DNA from: a virus
Length of the DNA stretch: 22,827 bases
Direction: 5' to 3' (one strand)
IMG/VR virus record: IMGVR_UViG_3300027805_001064
Coordinates: 1-22,827 of that record
Positions 7,132 to 15,654 of this stretch are shown in pieces. The translations under genes and the position numbers were made by a program. The number at the start of each line of letters is the position of its first letter. The stretch's first letter is position 1. The notes under the pieces were generated by a model. The model worked only from the letters and a program-made list of their open reading frames with translations. It did not search any database and was not told the origin of the DNA.

Positions 7132-7455
7132 TTAGCAGTTCCACTTGCGTAATGCTTTGTTAATTCTTGAATCTGGATCATTGGCTGTTTTAGCTGATGT
7201 CAATCGTTTCTTCATTCCACCCATACGAGCACAGAATGATTTACGGCGATTTGCTGCCTTTGAACCTGGTTTTAATTTTGATGGCTTTGTAGTAACAGCC
7301 ATACTTAGTTTTGAACCTGGATTTTCTCTACGATATGATGCAATACCTTTACGATTTAAACCACCTTCTGGATCTTTACCTGCGGCACGTTGCCATGCAG
7401 GAGATTTTTCATCTAAAGATTCTACTTCTTCTAAGAATTGTTTAAATTTTAACAT
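7132..7455 (-). CDS. Small basic phage protein (DUF6321-like) with capsid-targeting-like tag, 107 aa
   Basis: The N-terminus MLKFKQFLEE has F4, F7, L8 and E10, the same pattern as the other tagged proteins here, and a second possible prohead-protease site SLDE follows at 13-16. The rest is strongly basic: KSPAWQRAAGKDPEGG, ENPGSKL, KPSKLKPGSKAANRRKS, and a C-terminal RINKALRKWNC. I recall the SPAWQR...GGLNRKG pattern as the DUF6321 family of marine phages. The charge suggests DNA binding inside the head. The ATG lies inside the end of the upstream nucleotidyltransferase gene (14-nt overlap) and the next gene starts 14 nt after its stop. Confidence 0.78.
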   Translation of the reverse strand: MLKFKQFLEEVESLDEKSPAWQRAAGKDPEGGLNRKGIASYRRENPGSKLSMAVTTKPSKLKPGSKAANRRKSFCARMGGMKKRLTSAKTANDPDSRINKALRKWNC

Positions 7456-9334
7456 TTCGTTTTCTTTTTAGAATGTCGTTAGCACGAACTTTGTTATCAT
7501 TAGGTACAACTAAAGGTTCTTTATTTGTAGCACCATTAAGAGTTCCACCAACACCCATATCAAAGGCGCCTGGATCATCAATTGCTTCTTTCTTAACTAG
7601 CTTTCTAAACTTCTTAAAATCTTTACTGTCGTATTCACTACTTAGTGGGTTTACTGACCCACCAGACGGCATTGCTATAGAAGAAGGAGTGGCGTTACTA
7701 TACTCTTGGTTCTCACTATATGTTTGATTACCAAGTCCAGCACCACCAGTTAATCCTGAGCCATTTGTACGTGTGTTCCACTCGGAACCAAGGCCACTAG
7801 CATTACCAATTCTACCTGCACTTAAAGACTTATCTCCAAACTTTAATCTCTTTACTTTTTCTTTGTCTTTTTGGAAGTTTGGCTCTTTGGCCGTTGGGAG
7901 GACCTGGACTGTGGGGCCGCCTTCTTCGGAGTAGGTTTTGAAGATGTAGTCGGAGTTGTACTTAACGTCTCCGTCACGGACGTCATCTGGCCGGTTGAGC
8001 TTTCTTTGGAGCTGTTGTCCTGGGGAGTTGTTGTCGAGCAAGGGTCTACGGTTGGTTTTACTTTTAACCAGTCTATTAGTGCTTTGAGCATTTTTATTTT
8101 CCTTAAATAATAAATTAATATTTAACTTACTTCTTCGATTCAACCAATCTTCGGCTGTATCTCCTACATCAGAATCCAAAAACTCATTAGTGGATTCATA
8201 TACCTCGTATATATCTTCTTCTTTAGTATCTAAATTTCCTGTATTATCAAAAGGAATAAAATTACTAAAGGCTTCCATGAAATATTTAGTATTTTCTTGC
8301 GATTTAATCCACTTATCTTGCCTTACTGATTCAACCATCATTCTGGACAATAGTGAGTTTCTTTCTTTACTTGTTTCATCTGTCGTGTTAACAAATATCA
8401 TCATTGTATCATATCCCATATCTTCAAGTTCTTCTTTGATATAGGCAATTCTATCTCTATCATCGGCCGGACCATTAATAATCAATGGACCACGGTTACG
8501 AATGGCTTCTCTACGAGGATCATTGGTCTTTTCTGATAGTTTTTGTTTGTCGGCCAAGTAATCTTGTGCTTGAACCAAATTCAATTCAACAGACCTTTGT
8601 TCAGCAATGGCTTCACGAATAATAATGTCTTTACCAGAACCTGGACCACCAGTCACAAAAATTGCTTTGAATAGACCACGAGTATATGATTCATGTAAAC
8701 CCATACCTTTACGAGTATCATGCATTAACTCTTTTGCATGAGTATCTGAAACATGAGAAGGAACACCCTTTCTGAACTCACCAAAGTTCTTGCTCTTTGC
8801 GTGTTCTCTCATTTTACTGGCAGACATACCTTCAGTACCTTCGGCATCTGGATCACGATGACCAGCGGAATGTACAGTAATCTTTTTGAAATGATATTTT
8901 CCGTGGCCAGCCTCTACACCATTGTATTTGTGTAATAGGTGATGCATTTCTTTCACACGGTCGGAACCAACAACAACATGAAGGTGAGTTACGCCACTTT
9001 TGTGTGCATCTACTGCATGATGTAATATTGTTGGTTTCTCTTTCGATGCGGCCACAAAATTTGTGCCGCCAGATTTTGTTGCCTCTGAAATTGGGCCAGC
9101 TGTATAACGTTTTAAGTGTTTAATTTTTTGGTCAGCACTTAATGGATTCTTTTTACTATCTTGTGTATGAGAAACAACGATAGAATGAGTTGCATTATTT
9201 TTCTGTGCAATCTCTTTGACTTTACTAATCAATTTTAGATGACCTGTGGTAGGAGGACTCATTCTACCAAAGGTGATAACATGGTGTTTTTCACCTTGTT
9301 GTTCTTCTTTGATTGTATCTAAAAATGATTTCAT
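7442..9334 (-). CDS. Bifunctional nucleotidylyltransferase / P-loop kinase-like protein, 630 aa
   Basis: Residues about 17-180 form a cytidylyltransferase-like (NMNAT/NadM-type) nucleotidyltransferase. GRMSPPTTGH carries the HxGH-type signature with Thr29 in place of the first His, and SASKMRE (171-177) matches the second signature. Residues about 222-400 form a P-loop domain with Walker A GGPGSGKD (229-236). The pairing recalls NadR, which joins NMN adenylyltransferase with ribosylnicotinamide kinase, but the substrates here are unproven. The C-terminal 200 residues are polar, Gly/Asn-rich and of unknown fold. The N-terminus MKSFLDTIKE has F4, I8 and E10 like the tagged proteins around it. 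The ATGA overlap with the ligase-like gene suggests coupled synthesis. An alternate-frame ORF with odd base composition lies inside it at 7852-8091. Confidence 0.85.
   Translation of the reverse strand: MKSFLDTIKEEQQGEKHHVITFGRMSPPTTGHLKLISKVKEIAQKNNATHSIVVSHTQDSKKNPLSADQKIKHLKRYTAGPISEATKSGGTNFVAASKEKPTILHHAVDAHKSGVTHLHVVVGSDRVKEMHHLLHKYNGVEAGHGKYHFKKITVHSAGHRDPDAEGTEGMSASKMREHAKSKNFGEFRKGVPSHVSDTHAKELMHDTRKGMGLHESYTRGLFKAIFVTGGPGSGKDIIIREAIAEQRSVELNLVQAQDYLADKQKLSEKTNDPRREAIRNRGPLIINGPADDRDRIAYIKEELEDMGYDTMMIFVNTTDETSKERNSLLSRMMVESVRQDKWIKSQENTKYFMEAFSNFIPFDNTGNLDTKEEDIYEVYESTNEFLDSDVGDTAEDWLNRRSKLNINLLFKENKNAQSTNRLVKSKTNRRPLLDNNSPGQQLQRKLNRPDDVRDGDVKYNSDYIFKTYSEEGGPTVQVLPTAKEPNFQKDKEKVKRLKFGDKSLSAGRIGNASGLGSEWNTRTNGSGLTGGAGLGNQTYSENQEYSNATPSSIAMPSGGSVNPLSSEYDSKDFKKFRKLVKKEAIDDPGAFDMGVGGTLNGATNKEPLVVPNDNKVRANDILKRKRNVKI
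7852..8091 (-). CDS. Candidate overprinted gene inside the nucleotidyltransferase gene, 79 aa
   Basis: The ORF begins MLKALIDWLKVKP and becomes Ser/Thr/Pro-rich, ending in a basic tail (SKKTKKK). It has an ATG with AAGGA eight nt upstream, a better site than several accepted genes here. Its reading frame places the wobble base of the host gene at its own second codon position. In this stretch the host gene uses NNC codons almost exclusively, which yields Ser, Thr, Pro and Ala codons in the embedded frame. GC is about 52% over 7861-8040 by hand count against about 27-30% in the 60-nt flanks. C-rich wobble also removes stops in this frame, so openness alone is weak evidence. It could equally be a by-product of a recombined GC-rich patch. 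An amphipathic N-terminal helix and basic tail are the only visible features. Confidence 0.4.
   Translation of the reverse strand: MLKALIDWLKVKPTVDPCSTTTPQDNSSKESSTGQMTSVTETLSTTPTTSSKPTPKKAAPQSRSSQRPKSQTSKKTKKK
8100..8104 (-). promoter_or_regulatory. Ribosome-binding site of the embedded ORF
   Basis: AAGGA on the minus strand lies eight nt before the ATG at 8091-8089. It falls within the coding sequence of the nucleotidyltransferase/kinase gene (codons for KEN), so it may be chance. It is the main independent reason to consider that the embedded 79-codon ORF is translated. Confidence 0.4.
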
Positions 9335-10625: not shown

Positions 10626-11447
10626 TTAAATCAACGTATCCAACGTCTGGAAAAGGTTATACTTTGGTGTGTAGCCCATTTCTTTGATTTTTGAGATATC
10701 TAAAACCATGTTTTTTGTTTGAACTGTTTTATGAAATTGAGGTATGTCCATGGTACCAAATTTTGATGTAGAATTGACCTTACTTTTCACATAATCCAAA
10801 GCTTGTTTAATGAATACCATTTCACCATTACCTATGTTATAGATTTCATTCATATTTCCCTTTTCTATAACAAGATTAATGGCTTGCACCACATCATCAA
10901 CATGAATGTAATCACGGTAAAAAATACCGCCTTCATAAAGGTTAATATTTTCATTATTTACCACTTGATTAATCATATACTGTAAAGCGTTCTTTTTCTT
11001 AGATACCTTACCATCACTTTTACCTAACACATTGGCCAACCTAAGAATACGGTATTTTATATTGAATGTTTCACAATATGAAATGAGTAGTTGTTCAGCG
11101 GTACGTTTGGTGATTGAGTAAAACCCTCTAGGATTACAGTATGATTCTTCTCTGGCTGGTAGTTGAACATCACCATAAACGAACCAGGAACTAATAAAAT
11201 TAAAAGTAACGTTCTTATCCTTACAGGACTCTAATGTGCGCACCAAAGTCGTTAGGTTCGTTTCTATGTCAATGTATGGATTAGTGTGAACATTGTAGTT
11301 GTCCACGGTAGAAATAAAGTATACCACTTCACTATCATCTTTTACATCATAATCATACTTGGCATTGATTACCACATTATCTGTGAGTTCACGATAACGG
11401 CTACCAACAAAGCCGTTACCGCCTAGAACATTAATCAAGCGTTCCAT
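10626..11447 (-). CDS. NAD(P)-dependent sugar epimerase/reductase (extended SDR), 273 aa
   Basis: The nucleotide-binding motif GGNGFVGS (9-16) and catalytic Tyr110/Lys114 (FYSITK) with an upstream SS pair (86-87) mark an extended short-chain dehydrogenase of nucleotide-sugar metabolism. At 273 residues it is shorter than typical UDP-glucose 4-epimerases and close to CDP-paratose/abequose synthases. In Salmonella O-antigen clusters those follow the 3-dehydrase gene, as this gene does here (13-nt overlap with the RfbH-like gene). The likely reaction is reduction of the C4 keto group of a 3,6-dideoxy-4-ketohexose nucleotide, the last step of the sugar's synthesis. Stereochemistry and nucleotide cannot be read from the sequence; a 4-epimerase remains possible. 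Confidence 0.82.
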   Translation of the reverse strand: MERLINVLGGNGFVGSRYRELTDNVVINAKYDYDVKDDSEVVYFISTVDNYNVHTNPYIDIETNLTTLVRTLESCKDKNVTFNFISSWFVYGDVQLPAREESYCNPRGFYSITKRTAEQLLISYCETFNIKYRILRLANVLGKSDGKVSKKKNALQYMINQVVNNENINLYEGGIFYRDYIHVDDVVQAINLVIEKGNMNEIYNIGNGEMVFIKQALDYVKSKVNSTSKFGTMDIPQFHKTVQTKNMVLDISKIKEMGYTPKYNLFQTLDTLI

Positions 11448-12715
11448 TTTTTACATACATCTTCAATATATGCCAAAACTTTTTCGTTATAGAGTGGTGA
11501 ACAACCTAAGAAGAACACATTACTGAGAGCCAAGTTTGAATTAGGATAATCTTTATAATTATCTAAGTGTTTATACCCAGGATGTAACAGAATATTACCA
11601 CTAAAATAGTTTCTTGTTTGAATTTTATTAGATTCAAAATGTTGTACCAAGAATTCTTTTACATCTTGTGATTCACAATAGATTGGCACACCAAACCAAG
11701 AAGGATCGGCCTTAGATAGAGGATTGATAACACGAATCTCTTTGATGTTATCTTCTAAGAATTTTTGAATTGTTTTCTTATACTCACGGCGTTTCTCATC
11801 AATATATTCAAACTTCTTTAATTGCTCTAAACCAATTGCGCCTTGCAAGTCTAAAGGCTTGAGATTGTAACCCATTGTCGTAAACAGATATTTGTGGTCA
11901 ATCACACCATCATAATTATCTAACCAATTATCAAATCGTTTACCACAGGTGCCACATTCAAGCATATTGTTTGATCCGACACAATAACAATCACGACCCC
12001 ACCACGAAACACTTCTTACTAGATTGATAAGATTGTCATCATTACAACAAACCATGCCACCTTCACCAGTTGAGATGTGATGAGCAGGATAGAATGATGT
12101 TGACCAGCAGTAGTAATATTCTGTAATCAGTTTGCCATTATAATTTGTTCCCAATGAATCACAGTTATCACCAATCAAAAGAATGCCGTGTTTGGTGCAA
12201 ATGTCTTGTAGAATATCCATGTCAGGAGGATTACCAAGGACAGGTGATACAAAAATTGCTTTGGTTCTTGGTGTAATCTTTTCTACAAGCTTGACCAAAT
12301 CAAAATTGAGAGTTTCTAATTCAATATCAATGAATATAGGCTTTAGATTATTTTGAACTAATGGTGCAATCGTTGTTGGGAAACCTACTGGCGAAACGAT
12401 GACTTCATCACCATCTTGCCAGTTCATATGCTTCTTTAGTGCAGTAATCATTACTAGATTGGCAGATGAACCAGAATTCACCATGTGTGCATGTTTAACA
12501 CCAAAGCGTTTACTGAAATGAATTTGAAATTGTGCTACCTTTTCACCTGATGTAATCCATTTACCATTGACAAGTGTATCAATGGCCGCATACATTTCTT
12601 TTTCGTCCCATAACTGGCCAGAATACTGTACGAAATCACCATGTTTATAGTTGTCATAATTTTTGGCATAACTTGGGCGTTCTTTTGATAAAGTTTCAAT
12701 CATTTGATTAATCAT
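11435..12715 (-). CDS. rfbH: RfbH/DdhC-type NDP-4-keto-6-deoxyhexose 3-dehydrase, 426 aa
   Basis: The DegT/DnrJ/EryC1/StrS fold is clear (NSGSSANL, GDNCDSLGT, GEGG). The site that holds the PLP lysine in aminotransferases reads SFYPAHH, with His212 in that position. This is the hallmark of E1/RfbH dehydrases, which use PMP to remove the C3 hydroxyl. C185, C243 and C245 reproduce the C-x57-C-x1-C spacing I recall for the [2Fe-2S] site of E1, followed by C254 and C257 before GKRF. ColD-type dehydrases lack this cluster, so a CDP-sugar-type RfbH partnered with an E3-like reductase is favoured. No reductase is encoded here, so the host may supply it. AAGG lies 8 nt before the ATG. It sits between the C-methyltransferase and SDR genes. 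Confidence 0.9.
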   Translation of the reverse strand: MINQMIETLSKERPSYAKNYDNYKHGDFVQYSGQLWDEKEMYAAIDTLVNGKWITSGEKVAQFQIHFSKRFGVKHAHMVNSGSSANLVMITALKKHMNWQDGDEVIVSPVGFPTTIAPLVQNNLKPIFIDIELETLNFDLVKLVEKITPRTKAIFVSPVLGNPPDMDILQDICTKHGILLIGDNCDSLGTNYNGKLITEYYYCWSTSFYPAHHISTGEGGMVCCNDDNLINLVRSVSWWGRDCYCVGSNNMLECGTCGKRFDNWLDNYDGVIDHKYLFTTMGYNLKPLDLQGAIGLEQLKKFEYIDEKRREYKKTIQKFLEDNIKEIRVINPLSKADPSWFGVPIYCESQDVKEFLVQHFESNKIQTRNYFSGNILLHPGYKHLDNYKDYPNSNLALSNVFFLGCSPLYNEKVLAYIEDVCKKWNA

Positions 12716-12716
12716 T

Positions 12717-13901
12717 TTACAACCTTTTCATATCTAAAAATACATCATTTAAATTATTTCTCTGCGCAGTAATTCTTTCTTTAATCTCTTTAAAGAAGTT
12801 CCAAGCCAAAGGTACAAACAATATTCTATCATGTTCCTCAAAGGATTTCAATACTTCCGATCCAACTATACCAATAGAAGAACCTGGTGTATAGAGGCCT
12901 TGCTTCATTGGATTGTCATCTATAATCATATCAAATGGTACTTTGGCAAAGTTTAGGAATGTATTGCCTTTGGCTGGCGCTCCGTAACCCACGATTTTGT
13001 AACCATTTGTTCGGTATTCTTCCACGACCTGTTTAAATTTTTCAACTAGTTCAACACAGTTTTTAGAATATTGTGTGTATGTTTCTTTACTATACAGACC
13101 TGCATTTGTTTCAATATCAATTAGATTCTTAATATTTGCTGGTGATGAAGTGTCTGCACTAATAACAAAGATATAACTTGTTCCATGAATTGGTGTTTTA
13201 ATAACATTAATCAAATTTAAACCTGCTCTATTACACAGAAACATCATTGATTTGATATTGTAGAACGATATGTGTTCATGGTAAATAGTATCGAATTCAT
13301 CATTCAATATCATATCTGCCTGTGAGGTTTGAATAAAAATTAGGCCATCAATATTTAAATTCTTCTTACAGTTCTTTAAGAGTTCTAATGGATTTGGATT
13401 GTGTGCAAAAGCATTTTGAATTGTTATGATATCTACTGGCTGAGAATACTTATCATCAAAGTAACCACAAGTCACATTATGATTCTTTGAAGATAATTCA
13501 AAGAGATTTTCTGCCGGATCAACTCCATAAGTTTCTAATCCACGTTTTTTAAATTTATCTAACTGCGAACCATCATTACAACCAATATCTAAGACCGACT
13601 GTGGGTATACATTGAATTGTTCACAAACAAAATCAGCATACCAGTCCATATAATCAACATATGTTTTGGTCGTTCCACTTACATACAGATAGTTCTTATA
13701 GATTAAATCAGGATTAACAGCATGAGTTAGTTGAACATGATAACATTGTTCACACCGATTAATTTTTAATGGGTATGATGCCTCTGGTTCATCTTTACTT
13801 TTTTTATAAGAGTTGGCCAAAGGCTGGTCATTTAAATCTAACACAGGTATTAAATCACCACTATCACATGCTAAACATTTTTTAATTTCAGTTAAATCCA
13901 T
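12717..13901 (-). CDS. TylC3/NovU-type sugar C-methyltransferase, 394 aa
   Basis: It has the three-part layout of deoxysugar C-methyltransferases. The N-terminal zinc site has CxxC pairs at Cys9/12 and Cys50/53. The SAM-binding domain has DIGCNDGS (105-112) and the active-site motif YHEH (207-210). The C-terminal domain contains GYGAPAKGNT (305-314). Enzymes of this family methylate the carbon next to the keto group of NDP-4-keto-deoxysugars, often C3. Next to an RfbH 3-dehydrase this suggests a 3-C-methyl-3,6-dideoxyhexose, though some members act on other positions. It overlaps the upstream gene by 1 nt (TAATG) with GAGG as ribosome-binding site, and its stop is 1 nt from the dehydrase start. 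Confidence 0.88.
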   Translation of the reverse strand: MDLTEIKKCLACDSGDLIPVLDLNDQPLANSYKKSKDEPEASYPLKINRCEQCYHVQLTHAVNPDLIYKNYLYVSGTTKTYVDYMDWYADFVCEQFNVYPQSVLDIGCNDGSQLDKFKKRGLETYGVDPAENLFELSSKNHNVTCGYFDDKYSQPVDIITIQNAFAHNPNPLELLKNCKKNLNIDGLIFIQTSQADMILNDEFDTIYHEHISFYNIKSMMFLCNRAGLNLINVIKTPIHGTSYIFVISADTSSPANIKNLIDIETNAGLYSKETYTQYSKNCVELVEKFKQVVEEYRTNGYKIVGYGAPAKGNTFLNFAKVPFDMIIDDNPMKQGLYTPGSSIGIVGSEVLKSFEEHDRILFVPLAWNFFKEIKERITAQRNNLNDVFLDMKRL

Positions 13902-14629
13902 TATCTACCCTCATAAAAATTCTTATAATTATGAACCATGTCGTAATGCTTCTTCATTTCATTTAAATCTAAATTTGGATTCTCTGGCCAAATATTGTGC
14001 AATCTTGGATTGACATTATATTTAGCACCAGCAAGGAAGAAGTATACTTGTAGGAAACAATCGTTCCATCCTAACTGTGGTTGATTCTGATGTAGTCTAT
14101 CAAAATCTCTATCCAAAAACTCTACAAATTTATAAAATGTTTGAATGAAGGTACTTGTTTTCATAATCGTGCCAGCACCAGCACCATATTGTGTTCTATC
14201 AGGTTTAACACCAGAGATTGTTTCACAGATATCTAAAACTTCTTGATTAATGTAATTGCCATCGGTGATATTGTAAGATGCAATATCCCAATTAGGATCA
14301 AATTGAATTTCATTCAAACAGATTACATCATCTTCTGATATAATAAAATGTGTGGTGCCCATACAGATGGCAGCCAACATCATTCGTTTCATAAAGTTAT
14401 ATACTCTAAGTTTATCGAAACCCCAATGTGGTGAAGGATAACCCAAATCAAAGTCTGCATGTAGATAGTTCACATTATACTTTTTGCATACATCGTATTG
14501 AGAACCACCAGCGGCATCACAGGCAACAAAGTATGGTGCATTTGGATGATATTTACGGAATGAAGCAATCGAGGCTTCTAGCCCCGATTTGTTATCTTTA
14601 TTCCAATGATAGATGCCTAGTGAAGCCAT
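13901..14629 (-). CDS. GT-A-like glycosyltransferase, 242 aa
   Basis: The start at 14629 (MASLGIYHWN) is preferred over 14650 because GGAG lies 8 nt upstream, inside the end of the dehydratase gene. ASIASFRKYHPNAPYFVACDAAGG (about 19-42) gives a nucleotide-sugar-binding beta-alpha unit of a GT-A fold. SEDDV (about 98-102) supplies a DxD-like acidic motif, and WND (about 189) is typical of the acceptor side. No close family is recognised. It is embedded among deoxysugar genes, so it may transfer the sugar made here. Confidence 0.65.
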   Translation of the reverse strand: MASLGIYHWNKDNKSGLEASIASFRKYHPNAPYFVACDAAGGSQYDVCKKYNVNYLHADFDLGYPSPHWGFDKLRVYNFMKRMMLAAICMGTTHFIISEDDVICLNEIQFDPNWDIASYNITDGNYINQEVLDICETISGVKPDRTQYGAGAGTIMKTSTFIQTFYKFVEFLDRDFDRLHQNQPQLGWNDCFLQVYFFLAGAKYNVNPRLHNIWPENPNLDLNEMKKHYDMVHNYKNFYEGR

Positions 14630-15654
14630 CTTTTGTTCTCCAATGTCCACAAAGTCATCTCTTTAATTCGTTCACTCAATTTAATCTTTGGTTCCCAACC
14701 CAATGATTTCAATAAACCACCATCTAAGGCATATCGTAAATCATGGCCAGGTCTGCTACCATGAAAATCAACCATTTCATAATTAAGTTCTTTGCCTTGT
14801 GCTTCAGCAATCATCTTAGCCAAAGTTAAGTTATCAATTTCTTCCGTGCCAACAAGATTGAATTTAGGACAATGAGCCCAACCATAATCACCAGTATGTT
14901 TATAATTCTTTGGTAGATTGTTGAGGATAAACATTAGGCCTTCGGCCACATCTTTGGCATGAATATACATGCGAGTGCCGGCTTCTGTACAATCAGCATT
15001 AGCATGAATATAAACCTTTTCACCATCACGAGCCCTTTTAATACACATTGGAATAAATTTCTCTGGATGTTGGCGTTCACCAAACACATTCATTGTGTGT
15101 GTTACCACAATAGGCATCTTATAAGTGTTTTCATAGGCAACACAAAATTCTTCTGCGGCAGCCTTACTTGCTGAATATGGATTTGTTGAATTGTATCGGT
15201 CGTATTCTTTATAAGCAACACCGGGAGGTGCAACACCAAAGATTTCATCTGTTGAGAAATATACAAATCGTTCCAGATTAGGCAAATGTTTACGAGCATA
15301 CTCAAGCATATTGACTGTGCCAACAGTATTATCTTGTACGAATTCCATTGGATATTGAATACTGCGGTCAACGTGACTGCCTGCAGCTAAGTGTAATACG
15401 ATATCGATGTCACCAATATCGTTCACAATCATTTCGTTAAGTTCAGCTTTCAAATCGTGAAACACAATCCGCAATCGTTGAGATACAATCTTAGGATCAT
15501 GGTCTTGTAGCATATCATGTAATCGATTTAAGTTACCTGAAATATCTAAACGATCCAAACAAGTAATTTTATAATCAGTTTCTCGTAACATCTTGTCAAT
15601 AACATGATGAGCAATAAACCCAGCACCACCTGTAATCAATACATTCTTACTCAT
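14617..15654 (-). CDS. NDP-glucose 4,6-dehydratase (RmlB/RfbG-like), 345 aa
   Basis: This is an extended SDR with GGAGFI (9-14), the catalytic triplet Thr135-Asp136-Glu137 in STDEIFG, and Tyr160/Lys164 in YSASK. The TDE set is diagnostic of nucleotide-sugar 4,6-dehydratases, which convert NDP-glucose to NDP-4-keto-6-deoxyglucose with bound NAD. Length is standard (about 340-360). It provides the first committed step for the sugar then handled by the 3-dehydrase, C-methyltransferase and SDR downstream. Whether the nucleotide is dTDP or CDP cannot be read; the RfbH partner favours CDP, while the sequence feel is closer to RmlB. It overlaps the genes on both sides (4 and 13 nt). Confidence 0.88.
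   Translation of the reverse strand: MSKNVLITGGAGFIAHHVIDKMLRETDYKITCLDRLDISGNLNRLHDMLQDHDPKIVSQRLRIVFHDLKAELNEMIVNDIGDIDIVLHLAAGSHVDRSIQYPMEFVQDNTVGTVNMLEYARKHLPNLERFVYFSTDEIFGVAPPGVAYKEYDRYNSTNPYSASKAAAEEFCVAYENTYKMPIVVTHTMNVFGERQHPEKFIPMCIKRARDGEKVYIHANADCTEAGTRMYIHAKDVAEGLMFILNNLPKNYKHTGDYGWAHCPKFNLVGTEEIDNLTLAKMIAEAQGKELNYEMVDFHGSRPGHDLRYALDGGLLKSLGWEPKIKLSERIKEMTLWTLENKRWLH

Follow-up and report, generated by a model that had tools for sequence, protein, structure and literature searches.

A probable overlapping gene of about 80 codons within a NadR-like phage gene, apparently lost in several related lineages

The locus lies in the virus record IMGVR_UViG_3300027805_001064, of which positions 1 to 22,827 were analyzed (this whole stretch of 22,827 nucleotides is the window, and all positions refer to it). 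A gene of 630 codons on the minus strand, called the host gene here because it carries a second and much shorter reading frame, encodes a protein with a predicted NadR-like layout, that is, an N-terminal nucleotidyltransferase followed by a P-loop kinase domain on one chain (Table 1). NadR (1lw7) was the best Foldseek match of the host model, with the same two-domain order and a low TM-score on the whole model; the two proteins nevertheless share only 14% identity, and the host protein adds a probably disordered tail of ∼240 residues. In the isolate HTVC008M, kinase and cytidyltransferase are separate genes, whereas they are fused in the host gene of the window. As AlphaFold gave pLDDT values below 50 for host residues 388-629, the overlap is predicted to fall in the probably disordered tail. 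Host residues 494-630 had no match in the phage collection. Among 50,697 phage records, none contained a match spanning 80% of the host protein, and no isolate carrying the nested gene was found there; nor was any relative of the host gene confirmed when contigs from bacterial and archaeal genomes were scanned.

Table 1. Features of the host gene and of the frame nested within it (window coordinates)
Feature	Position	Strand	Basis
Host gene, 630 aa, NadR-like nucleotidyltransferase and P-loop kinase with probably disordered C-terminal extension	7442..9334	-	Pfam, PHROG, AlphaFold, Foldseek
Host residues 1-216, cytidylyltransferase-like domain	8687..9334	-	PF01467, residues 20-123; phrog_3041, residues 5-216
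Host residues 218-411, P-loop kinase domain (GGPGSGK)	8102..8683	-	phrog_12810, residues 218-411
Host tail from residue 388, probably disordered, carrier of the nested gene	7442..8173	-	AlphaFold pLDDT <50, residues 388-629
Probable nested gene, 79 aa, ATG to TAA	7852..8091	-	+1 frame relative to the 630-aa host gene; frame kept in homologues
Shine-Dalgarno (SD) motif TAAGGA	8100..8105	-	8 nt upstream of nested ATG; SD/ATG enrichment and AAG bias in homologues
Nested protein residues 2-10, predicted N-terminal helix	8062..8088	-	Family consensus MLKALIxLLKxKP; AlphaFold model
Nested protein residues 50-79, basic tail	7855..7944	-	Last 30 residues with median net charge +10 in family; conserved ..SKS..PK..TSxKTKKK
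G+C-rich, C-wobble patch of host frame	7861..8040	-	Base and codon counts

An earlier note on this DNA had described a 79-codon open reading frame (ORF) with an ATG and an AAGGA motif lying entirely within the 630-aa gene; its coordinates were confirmed, as was the +1 offset by which the host wobble base becomes the second base of the nested codon. The SD motif is supplied by host codons (..TTT AAG GAA..). In the window, the +1 frame is open for 89 codons, 79 of them from the ATG, and a stop lies 11 codons ahead of the nested ATG. Long spurious ORFs are frequent in the window, so ORF length alone counts little.

The nested frame runs through a patch with an unusual preference for C at host third positions. 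G+C amounts to 95 of 180 bases in the patch vs 18/60 and 20/60 in its flanks, and the 59 host codons that fall fully within it comprise 32 NNC and 3 NNT, vs 70 NNC and 241 NNT in the other 571. The G+C richness and the reversal of codon preference reported in the earlier note therefore stand, with hand counts (94, with flanks of 16 and 18, and 34 NNC to 4 NNT) that differ slightly from these. No other gene of the window has a comparable patch (best 40-codon GC3 of 0.72 here and ≤0.53 in the other 27 genes listed); the compositional step is sharp at both edges, and the excess is located in host third positions. Ser, Thr, Pro and Ala together make up 51% of the window's nested protein, compared with 15% when host codons 1-400 are translated in the +1 frame; the earlier note had proposed that the C bias yields this composition and removes stop codons. 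Synonymous reshuffling left the nested frame open in 0.25% of cases with gene-wide codon usage and in 42% with the patch's own usage, which bears out the earlier caution that an open frame is not independent of the bias. Since openness depends on the C bias, the comparison of homologues is what decides.

Homologues were collected in three scans of viral contigs by similarity to the host protein, the nested frame not being consulted in sampling. Of 153 distinct host sequences including the window, 17 under 500 aa were left out, and 136 were analyzed. The nested frame, opening with an ATG and closing with a stop in roughly the same place in the host sequence, was kept in 108 of these and broken in 28 (one sequence, L195, was recoded by eye as having the frame, L131 was recoded as broken, and L127 was counted as having it despite a nested gene of 44 aa); an earlier count with a 60-codon limit had given 94 of 103. 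Alignment of homologues of the 630-aa gene, which the earlier note had proposed as a check on the embedded start and stop, thus found that 108/136 retain the frame with its start and stop, along with the ribosome-binding site and the pattern of the peptide. A profile built from 57 nested proteins matched 107 of the 108 keepers at E <0.001 (L113 at E = 0.008), 39 of the matches being to sequences not identical to any training row, and matched 1 of the 28 frame-broken rows (L146) in part; the latter may be a remnant or, equally, a product of shared host codons. A nested-peptide profile (A3) matched once in each of six large gene-bearing records, with E values from 1e-15 to 1e-28. No free-standing copy was found with it, there being no additional match in those six records and none in four large records lacking the gene, nor did it detect an equivalent of the nested protein in the isolates HTVC008M, Melnitz-3 and C48C1.

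Dereplication left 101 rows, 82 with the gene and 19 without; NNC, synonymous and SD counts use 81 rows with the gene (L195 excluded). Over host codons 421-480 there were zero +1 stops across the 82 rows with the gene, whereas the 19 rows that lack it had 0.8 to 1.4 stops per row in every 20 codons. Of the 100 dereplicated homologues other than the window, 81 had the frame open, as opposed to 16/97, 36/100, 2/100 and 28/100 for four control ORFs of the host gene. An SD motif 3 to 14 nt ahead of the start was present for 76 of 81 nested frames (L129 and L135, for which a later Met was taken as the start, were scored without one) vs 77 of 1538 other out-of-frame internal ATGs of these genes, and the Lys codon that forms the motif was AAG in 59/62 rows vs 30/523 Lys-Glu pairs elsewhere. 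Wobble choice showed the same division: NNC/NNY in the overlap was 0.71 with the nested gene and 0.24 without, and the host Asn-Phe pair in this region was written AAC TTC 78 times out of 90 where the nested gene is present and 3 times out of 16 where it is absent.

Divergence also differed between the two groups. At codons for identical amino acids, in pairs of 70 to 85% identity, synonymous differences were reduced in the overlap where the gene is present (0.27 vs 0.41 in codons 1-400) but not where it is absent (0.43 vs 0.44 to 0.46); the synonymous-site test that the earlier note had suggested therefore shows lowered overlap divergence only where the nested frame exists. When single differences standing alone were counted in close pairs, those that altered the host protein were +1-synonymous at a ratio of 62:80 in the overlap, compared with 85:295 over codons 1-400 (P = 3e-6, Fisher test; odds ratio 2.7) and with 3:15 in the overlap of losers (P = 0.04 vs overlap with the gene), related sequences being treated as independent in these P values. 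The commonest change in the overlap of close pairs was host-synonymous and nested-nonsynonymous (199 of 348); because these changes alter the nested protein only, constraint on its middle is probably mainly compositional, and this part appears to evolve fast under selection that acts largely on composition. What the homologues share is a second frame that stays open within the host gene, its own start and stop included, together with apparent selection on this frame beyond that on the first; these are two of the marks of a nested protein-coding gene, and the second-frame signal is absent from lineages without the frame.

The 28 frame-broken relatives retain much of the host protein without the C-wobble patch. 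Host residues such as DNN and RDGD persist in many of them with more T-ending codons, and NNC/NNY in the overlap is 0.13 to 0.28 in each losing lineage, compared with 0.62 to 0.72 in three sister sets that keep the gene. As the patch was lost along with the frame, it appears to follow the nested gene. On a host tree (101 rows, linker columns removed; a quick search with the root not known), there are four switches between presence and absence of the gene. Gene-bearing rows occur on either side of the deepest split, and the simplest reading is therefore a single origin followed by about four losses. Judging by the relatives that do without it, the nested gene is dispensable in some phage lineages. 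The earlier note had held that homologues keeping the host protein while breaking the embedded frame would speak against its reading; 28 of 136 do so, which would count against it had they still carried the GC patch, but the patch is gone in every losing lineage. Its interpretation as a possible overprinted gene is supported, with the refinement that the frame is not universal and appears to have been lost several times.

Taken together, these comparisons argue strongly (probability roughly 0.9) for a real, selected overlapping gene of ∼80 codons within the host gene. The second gene would start within the host message at an ATG whose SD is made from host Lys-Glu codons, traverse the probably disordered C-terminal extension in the +1 frame and terminate at its own stop. 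The C-wobble patch would exist because a C in the host third position falls on the second base of nested codons, where it would give Ser, Thr, Pro and Ala and remove stops while host residues barely change. The conserved SD and ATG support initiation of translation within the host mRNA, and we infer that ribosomes initiating there would make both proteins together.

A very unlikely alternative is that the patch acts in cis at the level of RNA or DNA (as a C-rich binding site, a Rho-loading site or a signal that sets the rate of translation), with the open +1 frame as a by-product. The mRNA strand is indeed C-rich at the patch, and the patch's codon usage leaves the frame open in about half of reshuffles; such an element, however, leaves the SD and ATG (76/81) and the absence of stops in 82 rows unexplained, and the conserved consensus of the N-terminal helix is encoded mostly ahead of the C-rich part. 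Slightly less probable again is programmed frameshifting into the +1 frame, giving the host N-terminus an alternative tail, as the shared strand and +1 frame would allow; the +1 stop 11 codons upstream of the nested ATG in the window and the conserved SD and ATG speak against this. If another phage had recently donated a GC-rich segment, by recombination or import, the sharp step at both edges would be accounted for, but we consider the probability of this close to negligible, given that the patch is common to homologues down to ∼45% host identity with normal flanks, that the excess lies in host third positions, and that the patch vanishes where the frame is broken, a distribution on the host tree that contradicts import.

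The nested peptides form one family, with a short N-terminal helix (MLKALIxLLKxKP), a Ser/Thr/Pro/Gln linker of variable length and a Lys-rich tail (..SKS..PK..TSxKTKKK), the likeness of the tail (KTKKK) being partly dictated by conserved host codons (NF, KDKEK). Across 107 sequences (L195 excluded), median length is 85 aa, median pI is 10.4 and median net charge of the last 30 residues is +10; Lys makes up 17%, Thr 15%, Ser 14%, Pro 11% and Cys 0.2% of residues. In L127, the nested gene has been cut to 44 aa by an in-frame deletion, which has shortened the host tail as well; helix and basic tail remain, with little linker. The nested protein is predicted to be mostly disordered and basic: the sole structure in its low-confidence AlphaFold model (mean pLDDT 65) is a helix at residues 2-10, whose hydrophobic moment in the window is ordinary (35% of shuffles equally high). 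Searches with 57 members returned no significant match in Pfam (best E = 0.012, one member) or PHROGs (best E = 0.042, one member), and the nested protein had no match among PDB sequences at E up to 1. The nested gene is unlisted in any database tested, and a literature search that included few subscription-journal papers returned no report of the overlap or the protein family, which appears to be new.

Its product might tentatively be seen as an accessory peptide that binds nucleic acid or another polyanion while tethered by its helix, which would dock on a partner protein or membrane. The short hydrophobic/basic helix, flexible linker and tail charge of about +10 fit such a binder, and the proposal draws on composition and a low-confidence model. 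More speculative, and on balance doubtful, is the idea that the family occurs solely in overprinted form, with an NAD-type enzyme whose disordered tail carries a basic disordered protein that resembles a histone H1 tail and binds nucleic acid in infection, its amount tied to the enzyme mRNA by internal initiation. If that were true, the repeated natural losses would offer a system in which to measure the cost of the overlap to both proteins.

Nested +1 phage genes are a known kind, the lambda Rz1 gene sitting in the +1 frame of Rz (PMC6139136). Like Rz1, the frame described here is a complete small gene in the +1 frame of a longer phage gene on the same strand. Lambda Rz1 is an outer-membrane lipoprotein that acts with its host protein (PMC6139136), whereas here the lipobox Cys is missing and the host is a predicted NadR-like enzyme. 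That the nested product is an Rz1-like o-spanin, as its +1 layout and small Pro-rich character might suggest, has next to no probability: the N-terminus (MLKALIxLLKxKP) shows no signal peptide by eye, no Cys is conserved, the window has a separate Rz-like spanin pair (2246-2876), and the host frame encodes a predicted cytidyltransferase-family enzyme instead of a membrane-anchored i-spanin.

For the overlapping gene proposed here, a second parallel comes from overlapping regions of viruses, reported to be enriched in C, Ser, Pro, Arg and disorder-promoting residues (PMC6195259). The enrichment in C, Ser and Pro is shared, but Lys is abundant here instead of Arg, and related host genes without the overlap serve as controls. 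According to the spanin survey, o-spanin genes nested in this way are mostly unannotated and same-strand nested frames tend to be dropped by gene callers (PMC6139136), so a protein kept by most relatives of the host gene can escape annotation. Our results indicate that selection acts on one stretch of phage DNA for two proteins simultaneously, and the relatives with and without the overlap form a natural experiment, since wobble bias, synonymous divergence and stop codons all switch together between them. For AT-rich phages, a local NNC bias combined with an SD and ATG suggests a cheap screen for more nested genes.

Two further ORFs of the host gene were considered and rejected. An antisense ORF starting with TTG in the patch (7871-8110) was open in 36 of the 81 rows that have the nested gene and in none of the 19 that lack it, most simply as a by-product of missing stops, and a long +2-frame stretch over host codons 72-159 showed ordinary +2 stop densities in homologues. 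Elsewhere on the minus strand of the window, the two spanin-like genes (2246-2539 and 2382-2876) overlap by 158 nt and encode a small protein with a lipobox-like N-terminus (..MLGC..) and a longer one with N-terminal hydrophobic segments. Adjoining this pair is a gene (678-2249) for a 523-aa protein with a subtilase (Peptidase_S8) domain, and a run of sugar-modification genes (10626-15654) encodes an epimerase, a DegT-type aminotransferase, a C-methyltransferase and a nucleotide-sugar epimerase.
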